This document shows positions 35,191 through 38,252 of a stretch of DNA of 64,000 bases, one piece after another. The notes beneath the pieces are model-generated. The model did not search any database, was not told where the DNA came from, and saw only the letters and a program-made list of their open reading frames with translations. Every line of letters starts with the position of its first letter. The first letter of the stretch is position 1. The stretch spans positions 186,001-250,000 of the forward strand of contig JAHHHN010000008.1 in NCBI GenBank assembly GCA_019359325.1, written 5' to 3'. The DNA comes from Mojavia pulchra JT2-VF2 (GTDB lineage: Bacteria; Cyanobacteriota; Cyanobacteriia; Cyanobacteriales; Nostocaceae). Made by a program: the position numbers and the translations under genes.

Positions 35191-37119
35191 ATGATTTCTA
35201 CTCAACGGATAATTTATTGCATAAATCCAGACTGTTCTAGCCCTATTAATTCTTTGGGAAGCCAAATTTGTATAAATTGCCAAACTCCTTTAGTTCACCG
35301 CTATCTCTGGGCTGTCGGCTCATTGGCAACTAAAATTCCACCAGAAACAATGGTGACAAATAGGTATGAGGTAATTACATACCAGATTTGGCTGGATACT
35401 CAACCAGGGCTATTGCCAGATATACCCGAAGAACTGCCACCACAAGTTATTCCTTACCTAAAGTTATATCAACAGCGATTACATCTTCCCCAAGTGTACG
35501 GATTAGCTCGCTCCTTGGAAGAAGACGCAGATGATATTTTCTTACTGGAAAATGTGCCGATAGATGAAAATGGAAATTTATATCCGGCGATCGCTGATGT
35601 ATGGGAACAAGCAACGGCGGTAAGACAACTCTACTGGCTATGGCAGATTCTTCAACTTTGGAAACCTTTATCAGAATTGGAAGTTGCCAGTAGTTTACTG
35701 TTGCCAGACAACTTACGAGTCCAAGGTTGGTGTGTACGTCTATTGGAACTTCAGCAGACAAACGAAAACTTACCTAGTTTGCAAGATTTAGGGCAATCTT
35801 GGCAGCCTTGGGTAGCGTCTGCAAAAGCACCGATAGCCCAAGAGTTACAGAATATAATCGAGCAGATGTGTAGAGATGATGTAGAGCTAGAAGCAATCAC
35901 CAAGCAACTCAACGCCTTACTACTATCAACTGCGGCAGAATTACCATTAACCCTAGAAGTGGCAGGGGCAACGGATATTGGCCCAGAACTGATACGAAAT
36001 GAAGATAGTTGCTACCCTAACGGCTCTAGTTATCTAGACGACTTATTACTACCACGCTTGTCGATTGTTTGTGATGGCATTGGTGGGCATCAAGGCGGAG
36101 AGGTTGCCAGCCAATTGGCAGTGCAGTCCATGAAGTTGCAAATTCCTGCCTTATTAGCAGAGGTAGCACAACAAACTGAACTGATTTCACCAGACTTATT
36201 AACAGAACAACTAGAGGCAAGCTTACGGGTAGTAAATAACGTGATTTGTACCCGTAATGACGAACAAAAACGCCAAGGTAGAGAACGCATGGCTACAACT
36301 CTTGTGATGGCAGTGCAAGTGCCACAACGAGTGCAGACAATCTCTGGTAAGGTTTCAGACAATGCTCATGAACTTTACTTAGCTAGCGTTGGCGATAGCC
36401 GTGCTTATTGGATTACTCGTAACTATTGCCAGCTACTGACAGTAGATGATGATGTAGTAGCACGGGAACTACGCTTTGCCCGGAATTTATATCGTCAAGC
36501 CCTCCTCAGACCAGATGCGGCTGCATTAACCCAAGCATTAGGAACAAGAGATGCCGAATCTCTGAGAATTTTGATGAAGCGATTTATTTTGGAAGAAGAT
36601 GGCATATTGCTGCTGTGTTCCGATGGTTTAAGTGACAATAACTGGGTGGAACAATCCTGGCAGAATTACGCAGTGCCAGTGTTAACAGGTAAACTTGCCC
36701 TTGAAGATGCTGTCCAAGACTGGATTAAATTAGCCAACCAAAAAAATGGCCATGACAATACATCAGTTGTTTTAACTCTTTGCCGTATCTCTAGAGAGTA
36801 CTTAGTGCCAGTAGTTCGTAAACAGCAACAGCCGCAAGTAGAGGTTGTAGAAGTAGAAGTAGAAAAAGAAGAATTCTCTTTGGCAGAAAGTTCGCAAGTA
36901 CTGCTAGATTTGGATATTACAGCAGAAGAAATCTCAACTCCAGTCCAAAAACCAAGCCGAGGTAAGCTTGTAGTGCTACTTGGAGGATTATTAGCAGTAT
37001 TTGTGGGGGGTACGAGCTTGGGATTATTTGCTTGGTCGCAACTTCATCCCCAAACATTTCAGGAAGTTTGTCGTCAACTTCCTGCCAACGTACAGCAGTT
37101 ATGTCCCCAGAAAAAGTAA
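35191..37119 (+). CDS. PP2C-type serine/threonine phosphatase with zinc ribbon and C-terminal membrane anchor
   Basis: Predicted metal-dependent protein phosphatase. Residues ~8-35 form a four-Cys zinc ribbon (CINPDC...CINCQTPL) like those in front of cyanobacterial Ser/Thr kinases. Residues ~50-240 are a variable region without motifs I recognise. The PP2C core (~255-540) has the acidic metal ligands in RNEDS, DGIGGHQGGEVAS, GDSRAYWI, CSDGLSDNNW and GHDNTSVVL. A Glu-rich stretch is followed by one membrane segment (VVLLGGLLAVFVGGTSLGLF) and a short Cys-containing end. It may be membrane-tethered with the catalytic part in the cytosol. No kinase gene is adjacent. Confidence 0.88.
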   Translation: MISTQRIIYCINPDCSSPINSLGSQICINCQTPLVHRYLWAVGSLATKIPPETMVTNRYEVITYQIWLDTQPGLLPDIPEELPPQVIPYLKLYQQRLHLPQVYGLARSLEEDADDIFLLENVPIDENGNLYPAIADVWEQATAVRQLYWLWQILQLWKPLSELEVASSLLLPDNLRVQGWCVRLLELQQTNENLPSLQDLGQSWQPWVASAKAPIAQELQNIIEQMCRDDVELEAITKQLNALLLSTAAELPLTLEVAGATDIGPELIRNEDSCYPNGSSYLDDLLLPRLSIVCDGIGGHQGGEVASQLAVQSMKLQIPALLAEVAQQTELISPDLLTEQLEASLRVVNNVICTRNDEQKRQGRERMATTLVMAVQVPQRVQTISGKVSDNAHELYLASVGDSRAYWITRNYCQLLTVDDDVVARELRFARNLYRQALLRPDAAALTQALGTRDAESLRILMKRFILEEDGILLLCSDGLSDNNWVEQSWQNYAVPVLTGKLALEDAVQDWIKLANQKNGHDNTSVVLTLCRISREYLVPVVRKQQQPQVEVVEVEVEKEEFSLAESSQVLLDLDITAEEISTPVQKPSRGKLVVLLGGLLAVFVGGTSLGLFAWSQLHPQTFQEVCRQLPANVQQLCPQKK

Positions 37120-37250
37120 GTAGCGTGACTACTATATTTTTCTCCTGCTAATGCCTAATGCCCAATCACAATTGGTTTCGCTGCTTAATAGCATTTCTAT
37201 TCGGCACAGCATCTAGGGATAGAATAACTATCTTGTTGTAGAATTAGACT

Positions 37251-37465
37251 TGGCGTTAAAGCGCCCAGTAAGAGCTAAAGCGGGTTATCCTTTTGCCCGT
37301 GAAGCTAGCTGCCCATCCTCTACATCAGCGCCTCTGAGACACCCGTGGGAGTGGACAAGTGCAAAGAGGAAGCAGTGGTGGCGTGGATTTTCCTGCTCAC
37401 TATCTGCCGCTCGGCGGAAGTCGCAGCTGGAGTTCATCGCTTTCTTACCGTCAGTAAGAAAAAAT
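37251..37465 (+). ncRNA. Structured non-coding RNA candidate (possibly 6S RNA)
   Basis: This GC-richer block in an AT-rich gap can fold into a long rod. GTAAG (37268-37272) and AAAGCG (37277-37282) pair with CTTAC (37444-37448) and CGCTTT (37438-37443) as a closing stem. Inside, AGCTGC pairs with GCAGCT and CCTCT with AGAGG, and local hairpins CACCC/GGGAGTG and CCGC/GCGG appear. A TAGAAT box (37239-37244) lies 6 bases upstream, a GGCG/CGCC hairpin is at the 5' end and a terminator at the 3' end. Size and the closed rod fit cyanobacterial 6S RNA, but I cannot confirm the family. A 90-codon open frame across it has no protein-like features. Confidence 0.5.
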
Positions 37466-37472
37466 AAATTTT
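37441..37472 (+). terminator. Terminator hairpin of the structured RNA
   Basis: TTTCTTAC (37441-37448) and GTAAGAAA (37454-37461) are perfect arms around CGTCA, followed by AAATAAATTTTT. The left arm is shared with the RNA's closing stem, so the two structures compete. Confidence 0.55.
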
Positions 37473-37979
37473 TCCCACATAACCTGTCGATGCATTCTGT
37501 CTACTCTGAGGTACGGAGTTGATTTAAAACTAAAAAGCCTGGCTCGTTCAAATGGCGGGTTTTTCATCAAGGCAAAATTTGAAAGTAAAGATGCAATTAA
37601 TTGCTTCTTTCTAAAGTAAAAGAAAAATCTTTTAGCTTTAATCTTTAAATTTTGGCTTGTTTGAGGCTGGTTAAGACGCATTAAGACAGAAAGAAAATCT
37701 CCAGGGTTTTCTGGTTAACCACTGTTTGTGACAAACTGATTGTCAGAGTTTGTTGAACTGTGGGAAGTTGAAAAGTTAATTGCAATTAAAAGGATTAGAC
37801 CTCTTGCTAAAGCACCAGGCGGCTGTGATGTCGCCGATTGATCAACTTCAAAGCCTGCACGGGCAGGCTTTGTTCGTATAGCAGGTACGAAGATATTCAA
37901 CAGCCAGTCTGTACAGATGATCTCTGAAGTGCGACTGTTGCAAGCAGTCTATTTTTCAAAAAAGCAAGTTCAGTGAGGA
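37473..37979. other. Intergenic region between the structured RNA and ftrV
   Basis: No gene is supported. There is a perfect hairpin CAAAGCCTGC-ACGG-GCAGGCTTTG (37849-37872) followed by TTCG, resembling a terminator or attenuator about 110 bases before ftrV. Another small palindrome, GTTTGTGACAAAC, lies near 37724. Confidence 0.5.
37849..37872 (+). terminator. Perfect GC-rich hairpin upstream of ftrV
   Basis: 10-base arms with an ACGG loop. The following T-run is weak (TTTGTTCG), so it may be an RNA processing or regulatory hairpin rather than a strong terminator. Confidence 0.4.
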
Positions 37980-38252
37980 ATGGCTGTGGAGATACTTGTG
38001 GAAAAGGAAAAGCTAGGTGTAAATGCTGTTATGAAAGTTGGCGATCGCGTTCGTATTAAAGATTCGGTTGTAGTTTACCATCATCCTGAACATCGTGGTC
38101 AGGCTTTTGACCTTCAAGGCTCAGAAGGCGAAGTCGTGGCTATTGTTAACCAGTGGCAAGGTAGACCTGTGAGCGCTAATCTGCCAATTTTAGTCCAGTT
38201 TAGTAAAAAATTTAAAGCTCACTTACGTGAAAATGAGTTAGAAATCATCTAG
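37980..38252 (+). CDS. ftrV: Ferredoxin-thioredoxin reductase variable chain
   Basis: Non-catalytic subunit that, with the Fe-S catalytic chain FtrC, passes electrons from photosystem-I-reduced ferredoxin to thioredoxin. The SH3-like core begins MKVGDRVRIKDSVVVYHHPE and includes FDLQGSEGEVVAIVNQWQGR and SANLPILVQF. The given start adds a 17-residue lead. AGGA touches the first ATG, so a GTG two codons later (spacing 6) may be the real start; the internal ATG at residue 18 (37980+51) would give the classical ~73-aa size but lacks a ribosome site. Confidence 0.92.
   Translation: MAVEILVEKEKLGVNAVMKVGDRVRIKDSVVVYHHPEHRGQAFDLQGSEGEVVAIVNQWQGRPVSANLPILVQFSKKFKAHLRENELEII

Follow-up and report, generated by a model that had tools for sequence, protein, structure and literature searches.

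A conserved, non-coding island in front of ftrV in heterocyst-forming cyanobacteria probably belongs to a leader RNA not yet catalogued

What kind of element fills the gap between a PP2C-type phosphatase gene and ftrV in Mojavia pulchra JT2-VF2, and is it an RNA? We addressed this question in a window of 64,000 nucleotides (assembly GCA_019359325.1, contig JAHHHN010000008.1, positions 186,001 to 250,000), taken from a genome of 8.19 Mb; all coordinates below are those of the window, and all features lie on its forward strand. The island (37239-37470) follows the PP2C-type gene (35191-37119; PF13672, E 5.2e-07), as a preliminary description of this DNA had said, and at its other side stands ftrV (37980-38252; PF02941, E 1.6e-36), the single-copy gene for the variable chain, or small subunit, of ferredoxin-thioredoxin reductase, whose most similar homologs among the named loci come from Nostoc, Calothrix and Desmonostoc. 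A PP2C-like protein is encoded in at least two places in each of the 14 genomes searched, one at 63-71% identity and a second, more distant one at 41-44%. The preliminary description had read the island as an unannotated structured RNA gene, perhaps 6S RNA. We find instead that it is a conserved, non-coding stretch in front of ftrV in heterocyst-forming cyanobacteria, that it is probably transcribed, and that it looks like part of a leader RNA which has so far not been catalogued.

The island occurs once in its own genome. With its DNA as a 251-base query, 42 of the 192 genomes of the family have a match at E ≤ 0.001, so that as a conserved stretch it exceeds chance; with a relative's version as query, 45 of 217 genomes gave matches. 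Flanks matching both PP2C and ftrV accompany 30 of the 32 loci collected from the island search, the two exceptions being a 6S locus (L009) and L029. Among the 45 distinct 5' units that were collected, the -10-like box TAGAAT is present in 40 and a recognisable core hairpin in 37, and the eight units that lack the core still have the box and the first bases; indeed, the box and the first transcribed bases form the portion that is matched most often. The middle modules differ from lineage to lineage. Measured from the box to a downstream hairpin of the GCCTGC/GCAGGC type, the shortest units span 90-115 bases and nine more 191-197, and the distance grows to about 640 bases in this window because of inserts. 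No Rfam family, 6S RNA included, matches the island at its gathering score, and even at E ≤ 10 the eight matches between 37100 and 37980 all fall at 37522-37874 and none in the island, nor did this search recognise any described riboswitch aptamer class there. The element would thus be an RNA family of a familiar kind that has no Rfam entry.

A conserved stretch of this length could also be a small protein gene, given that a frame of 90 amino acids (37250-37522) is open in this genome and that tblastn finds similar stretches in some relatives. Conservation at the protein level, which had been named beforehand as the observation that would speak against an RNA, was looked for and not found. Among the 41 of 44 relatives that entered the codon test, with at least 60 aligned bases each and related sequences counted separately, all 41 carry frame-breaking indels and 38 an in-frame stop, and the differences are spread almost evenly over the three codon positions (583, 623 and 530). 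Taken together with the absence of any protein family for the frame, the indels, the stops and the flat distribution of differences rule out a protein gene, a reading that we hold to be exceedingly improbable.

The proposal of 6S RNA rested on the size range of the island and on the competing folds of its single sequence. 6S RNA folds into a single long, closed rod that opens into a bubble at its centre. RF00013 is absent among the Rfam matches even at E ≤ 10, the layout is a different one, and the genuine 6S gene of this genome lies elsewhere (G000:C19:113379-113563, 99.8 bits against a cut-off of 46.4), so that only the size range is alike. The arms of the rod can indeed pair in the single sequence, and the two competing folds are borne out on paper: when 37262-37448 is folded, GTAAG (37268-37272) pairs with CTTAC (37444-37448), and when 37251-37472 is folded, a 3' hairpin forms in place of this pairing, the outcome depending on the span that is folded. 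Neither fold is more stable than expected, however, with z of -0.48 and 63 of 200 shuffles at least as good for the shorter span, and z of -1.20 and 24 of 200 shuffles for the longer one. Nor is the long-range closing stem maintained in 15 long-form relatives, where own arms reach -10.1 kcal/mol against -9.9 for swapped arms and 2859 of 10000 permutations are as good. The arm-swap permutations lead us to reject the closed rod, and 6S RNA is ruled out by the missing model match, the copy elsewhere and the unconserved rod; we give it practically no chance.

The structure that the relatives do support is a series of smaller hairpins behind a putative promoter, P1. Its -10-like box, TAGAAT, stands at 37239-37244, just upstream of the proposed rod as previously noted, and transcription would start near 37251; the box has no -35 partner and is absent from the output of the sigma-70 scan. 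Upstream of the box lies the palindrome GATAGAATAACTATC (37218-37232), with related, differing palindromes in relatives by eye; it might serve as an operator. We assessed each hairpin by swapping arms between relatives after removing identical arm pairs; these permutations ignore phylogeny, so that the support they give is possibly overstated. H1, the 5' hairpin with GGCG/CGCC (37252-37265), scores better with its own arms than with swapped ones, 42 of 5000 permutations being as good (20 distinct arm pairs). The same holds for H2 (AGCT..CGGG/CCCG..AGCT, 37273-37306), with 15 of 5000, and its excess of covariation is modest, the score being reached by 32 of 500 shuffles; this count used 28 distinct sequences, and for both H2 tests nine units, mostly short forms, were removed by name, one of which (L007) has a possible right arm. 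Next comes the core hairpin (37315-37370), in which CTGAGACACC...GTGGACAAGTGC is conserved inside an ATCCTC/GAGGA stem. Its outer and middle stems prefer their own partners (18 and 110 of 5000 permutations as good) and its apical stem does not (1072 of 5000), and covariation in 29 of the 37 core sequences is no higher than in shuffles, 246 of 500 of which reach the score; the core is supported mainly by the conservation of its sequence. In one unit (L025), a repeat rich in CCCCTCTCC is inserted in the H2 region, and the core hairpin downstream of it is intact.

The island closes with the end hairpin TTTCTTAC/GTAAGAAA (37441-37461) ahead of an A/T-rich run, and the left arm of this hairpin doubles as the right arm of the proposed rod. 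The hairpin is there as the preliminary description had it, but what follows it is AAATAAATTTTT and not a direct T-run, and the terminator scan does not list the site. In mean fold z, H2 reached -1.23 over 45 sequences and the core -1.39 over 37; the hairpin that ends the units reached -3.71 over 38, and compact units taken whole -2.0 over 17. RNAalifold returned no consensus structure, with an energy near zero, and was not relied on. Because of these arm-swap, covariation and fold z results, we consider a chain of hairpins likely and a closed rod not. What stands of the unannotated RNA element first described is therefore the conserved -10-like box, the hairpins that fit their own partners and the lack of a coding signal; its identity as 6S RNA and its closed form do not.

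Parts of the region are also found in dispersed repeats. The 3' half of the island (37380-37451) resembles a segment that lies, in two other genomes, inside an element with TTTATAAAGTAAA/TTTACTTTATAAA ends; in these MITE-like elements (L029, about 1350-1750, and L189, about 1650-2010) the segment shares about 80% identity with the 3' half, and one of the elements adjoins a pstB-like gene, called by translation. The GCCTGC/GCAGGC hairpin type with its tail TTTGTTTGTNTAG (37850-37881 in the window) is likewise dispersed: when two mismatches are allowed, 32 of 60 relatives contain the pattern GCCTGCNNNGGCAGGCTTTGTTYGTNTAG, as many as 27 times in one genome, and none of the 60 contains its reversed control. 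When the order was searched with the Scytonema leader, 76 of 388 genomes matched, mostly in this hairpin alone. At three loci the hairpin is followed by a second small one (GCGAC..GTCG or GCGAA..TTCGC). One locus, L174 (G346:C3:5604929-5606273), holds ten matches to the end-hairpin part of a ftrV leader within about 1.3 kb. Their spacing is about 109 bases or a multiple of that, which points to a tandem array, and none of them passed the tail-restricted filter. Because the hairpin is dispersed and a segment like the 3' half is borne by MITE-like elements, we conclude that the leader in part either stems from small mobile repeats or has passed into them.

These resemblances lend weight to a deflationary account, in which only a promoter region is conserved and what follows it is repeat-derived debris that folds by chance, giving an RNA without function. 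In its favour, matches fall most often on the box and the first transcribed bases, and it agrees with the core covariation that does not rise above shuffles as well as with the repeat likeness of both the 3' half and the 37850 hairpin. On the other hand, a core sequence that remains recognisable in 37 of 45 units, and an H2 and an outer core stem that fit their own partners, speak against it, and we consider this account unlikely. If it were correct, the locus would be an ordinary one.

The linkage with ftrV reaches beyond the loci with P1. A second putative start element, P2 (37790-37835), is homologous to one ahead of ftrV in Scytonema and others (80% identity to the Scytonema leader L049, E 1.7e-4), and in Fischerella, Scytonema, Brasilonema and Chlorogloeopsis P2, typically GAAGATAATAAGGATTAGACCTCTTGCC, precedes the same GCCTGC/GCAGGC-type hairpin upstream of ftrV. 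In one scan of the best 80 of 208 loci, all of them named ftrV loci and covered up to 1400 bases upstream of ftrV, 25 had P1 and 54 had P2; at least one of the two was present in 71, both together in 8 and neither in 9. Since 18 sequences from these loci served to train the P2 model, its hits in those 18 are by construction. On the question of whether P1 and P2 are duplicates, the P1 model scores P2 weakly, with a best E of 0.027. The PP2C gene adjoins ftrV in 37 of the 80, counted over up to 2.5 kb upstream and over fewer bases in several loci. P1 is nearly always found with the PP2C-ftrV arrangement (24 of its 25 loci), and the wider linkage to ftrV therefore rests on P2, which accompanies ftrV more closely than it does the PP2C gene. 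P2 immediately precedes ftrV in L097 and also, judged by eye, in L051, and neither P1 nor P2 was matched in the flanks (about 1.5 kb) of 14 PP2C loci from other genomes, 12 of which are without ftrV in the flanks examined and one of which (L147) covers just part of a split gene. At one locus (L052), the last 800 bases before ftrV hold, by eye, a fragment of a transposase-type frame between the P2-type leader with its hairpin and ftrV.

Downstream of P2, the hairpin AAAGCCTGC/GCAGGCTTT (37850-37871), of the dispersed type, has an interrupted T tail and is terminator-like at best; it is not listed in the terminator scan, and its arms, which hardly vary, show no preference for their own partners (948 of 5000 permutations as good). 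In relatives, the final stretch of the leader (37872-37979 in this window) contains a stem that covaries. Between the 37850-type hairpin and ftrV, 86.6% of cells are paired in 29 relatives, 28 cells have changed on both sides where shuffles give 14.5, and none of 500 shuffles reached the covariation score; by arm swapping in 43 relatives, none of 5000 permutations was as good. The covariation count used 29 of 31 sequences, L075 and L099 being left out, and 20 more loci, including L001, were excluded by name, their stretch being short, absent or of the L001 type. In this genome the stem is weak, at -2.9 kcal/mol. Because the stem covaries, it suggests that in the relatives the stretch before ftrV is transcribed as RNA together with ftrV. 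Further on, the hairpin GACTGTTGCAAGCAGTC (37933-37949) with the tail TATTTTTC makes up the only terminator-like site (37933-37957) listed between 37100 and 38000, where 0.8 would be expected by chance; its inverted repeat shows no preference for its own partners in two tests (2374 and 1455 of 5000 permutations as good). Beside it, 30 bases before the ftrV ATG, lies a widely conserved TATTTT, so that the site could be either terminator-like or, by this motif, the -10 box of ftrV itself. A candidate antiterminator, in which the first bases after the 37850-type hairpin pair with the left arm at 37933, pairs well in some relatives (L004, L012) and was rejected, with 4100 of 5000 permutations as good across 42 relatives.

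A promoter of its own for ftrV, just before the start codon, is also what the main rival to the leader reading supposes, namely a separate gene for a trans-acting small RNA in the same space, which would begin at P1 and end at the GCCTGC/GCAGGC hairpin, between 90 and about 640 bases from the box depending on the genome. The compact forms do look self-contained, with box, hairpins and end hairpin in 90-200 bases, and the conserved TATTTT would supply the promoter of ftrV. Against it, the element follows ftrV and is not free-standing, the tail of T residues on the end hairpin is interrupted, and the RNA-like covarying stem lies between that hairpin and ftrV, beyond the end of such a gene. We regard a separate small RNA as possible but doubtful.

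We propose that a long, modular leader of ftrV has this island at its 5' end and is made from an extra upstream promoter, with partial stopping and read-through, and we put the chance of this at about even. P1 would start an alternative, long untranslated leader; the polymerase would pass the chain of hairpins and then P2 (from 37790), which is the more widely distributed of the two start elements, and reach the hairpins at 37850-37871 and 37933-37949, to read through into ftrV. Stopping at these two hairpins part of the time would probably yield short leader RNAs, and the level of ftrV mRNA would depend on read-through past them. The conservation, the lack of coding, the hairpins, the tie to ftrV and the covarying stem of the relatives are shown, and transcription, start sites, stopping and regulatory use of the leader are what we infer; the proposal draws on the start elements found ahead of ftrV in 71 of the 80 loci as against 37 with PP2C, on their absence around other PP2C genes, on the covarying stem, on the own-partner fit of H1, H2 and the outer core stem, and on the lack of a coding signal. 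Several observations pull the other way: the missing -35 box of P1 and its distance of about 740 bases from ftrV in this window, the poor tail and dispersed type of the 37850 hairpin, the weakness of the pre-ftrV stem here and the loci outside its covariation set, the core covariation, the failed antiterminator and the TATTTT, which could be the promoter of ftrV. Two of the 14 PP2C loci from other genomes (L143, L144), moreover, have PP2C next to ftrV and yet carry neither P1 nor P2.

If the leader reading is true, ftrV, which forms part of the link from light to metabolism, has a conserved and rapidly remodelled RNA leader outside any Rfam family. The thioredoxin system would then have a further layer of control open to testing, and the leader would show how modules come and go and are exchanged with small mobile repeats. 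A further step would be that the core (CTGAGACACC...GTGGACAAGTGC) senses a metabolite, a redox state or a protein and sets ftrV read-through, an RNA-level control of the thioredoxin system in heterocyst-formers; this is a speculation that we judge improbable. Were it true, a sensing leader might help to explain why the catalytic subunit of the reductase was undetected in heterocysts of Anabaena 7120, a finding of the paper that identifies FTR-V of this strain as asl2469 (PMC7242069). Judging from gene order, all2470 would be the PP2C gene of strain 7120.

Small RNAs already described in this group offer one comparison. NsiR1, NsiR3, NsiR8, NsiR9 and NsrR1 (PMC4734099; PMC6166021) are, like the island, short conserved units confined to this group that have a start box at one end and a hairpin at the other; NsrR1, unlike the island at ftrV (asl2469), lies between alr1709 and all1710 (PMC6166021). 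The small RNA survey of Nostoc 7120 admitted a start only if the next gene on its strand lay 200 bases or more downstream (PMC4734099), and a short form such as L088, with its box about 200 bases before ftrV, could therefore be missed; Table 1 there gives positions only, and none of the entries 268249f, 2462444f and 1938093f could be tied to the ftrV locus. Within the titles and abstracts of the best-ranked literature on ftrV, asl2469, all2470 and prpJ2, we found no published account of the leader element. Attenuated or otherwise regulated 5' leaders are a general kind among bacterial genes. The ftrV element differs from them in that its terminator is a candidate only, its description includes no ligand, no alternative pairing passes the test and its middle modules vary between lineages. 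It is like them in being a long, conserved, non-coding stretch before one gene, with hairpins ahead of that gene and a stem that covaries in relatives.
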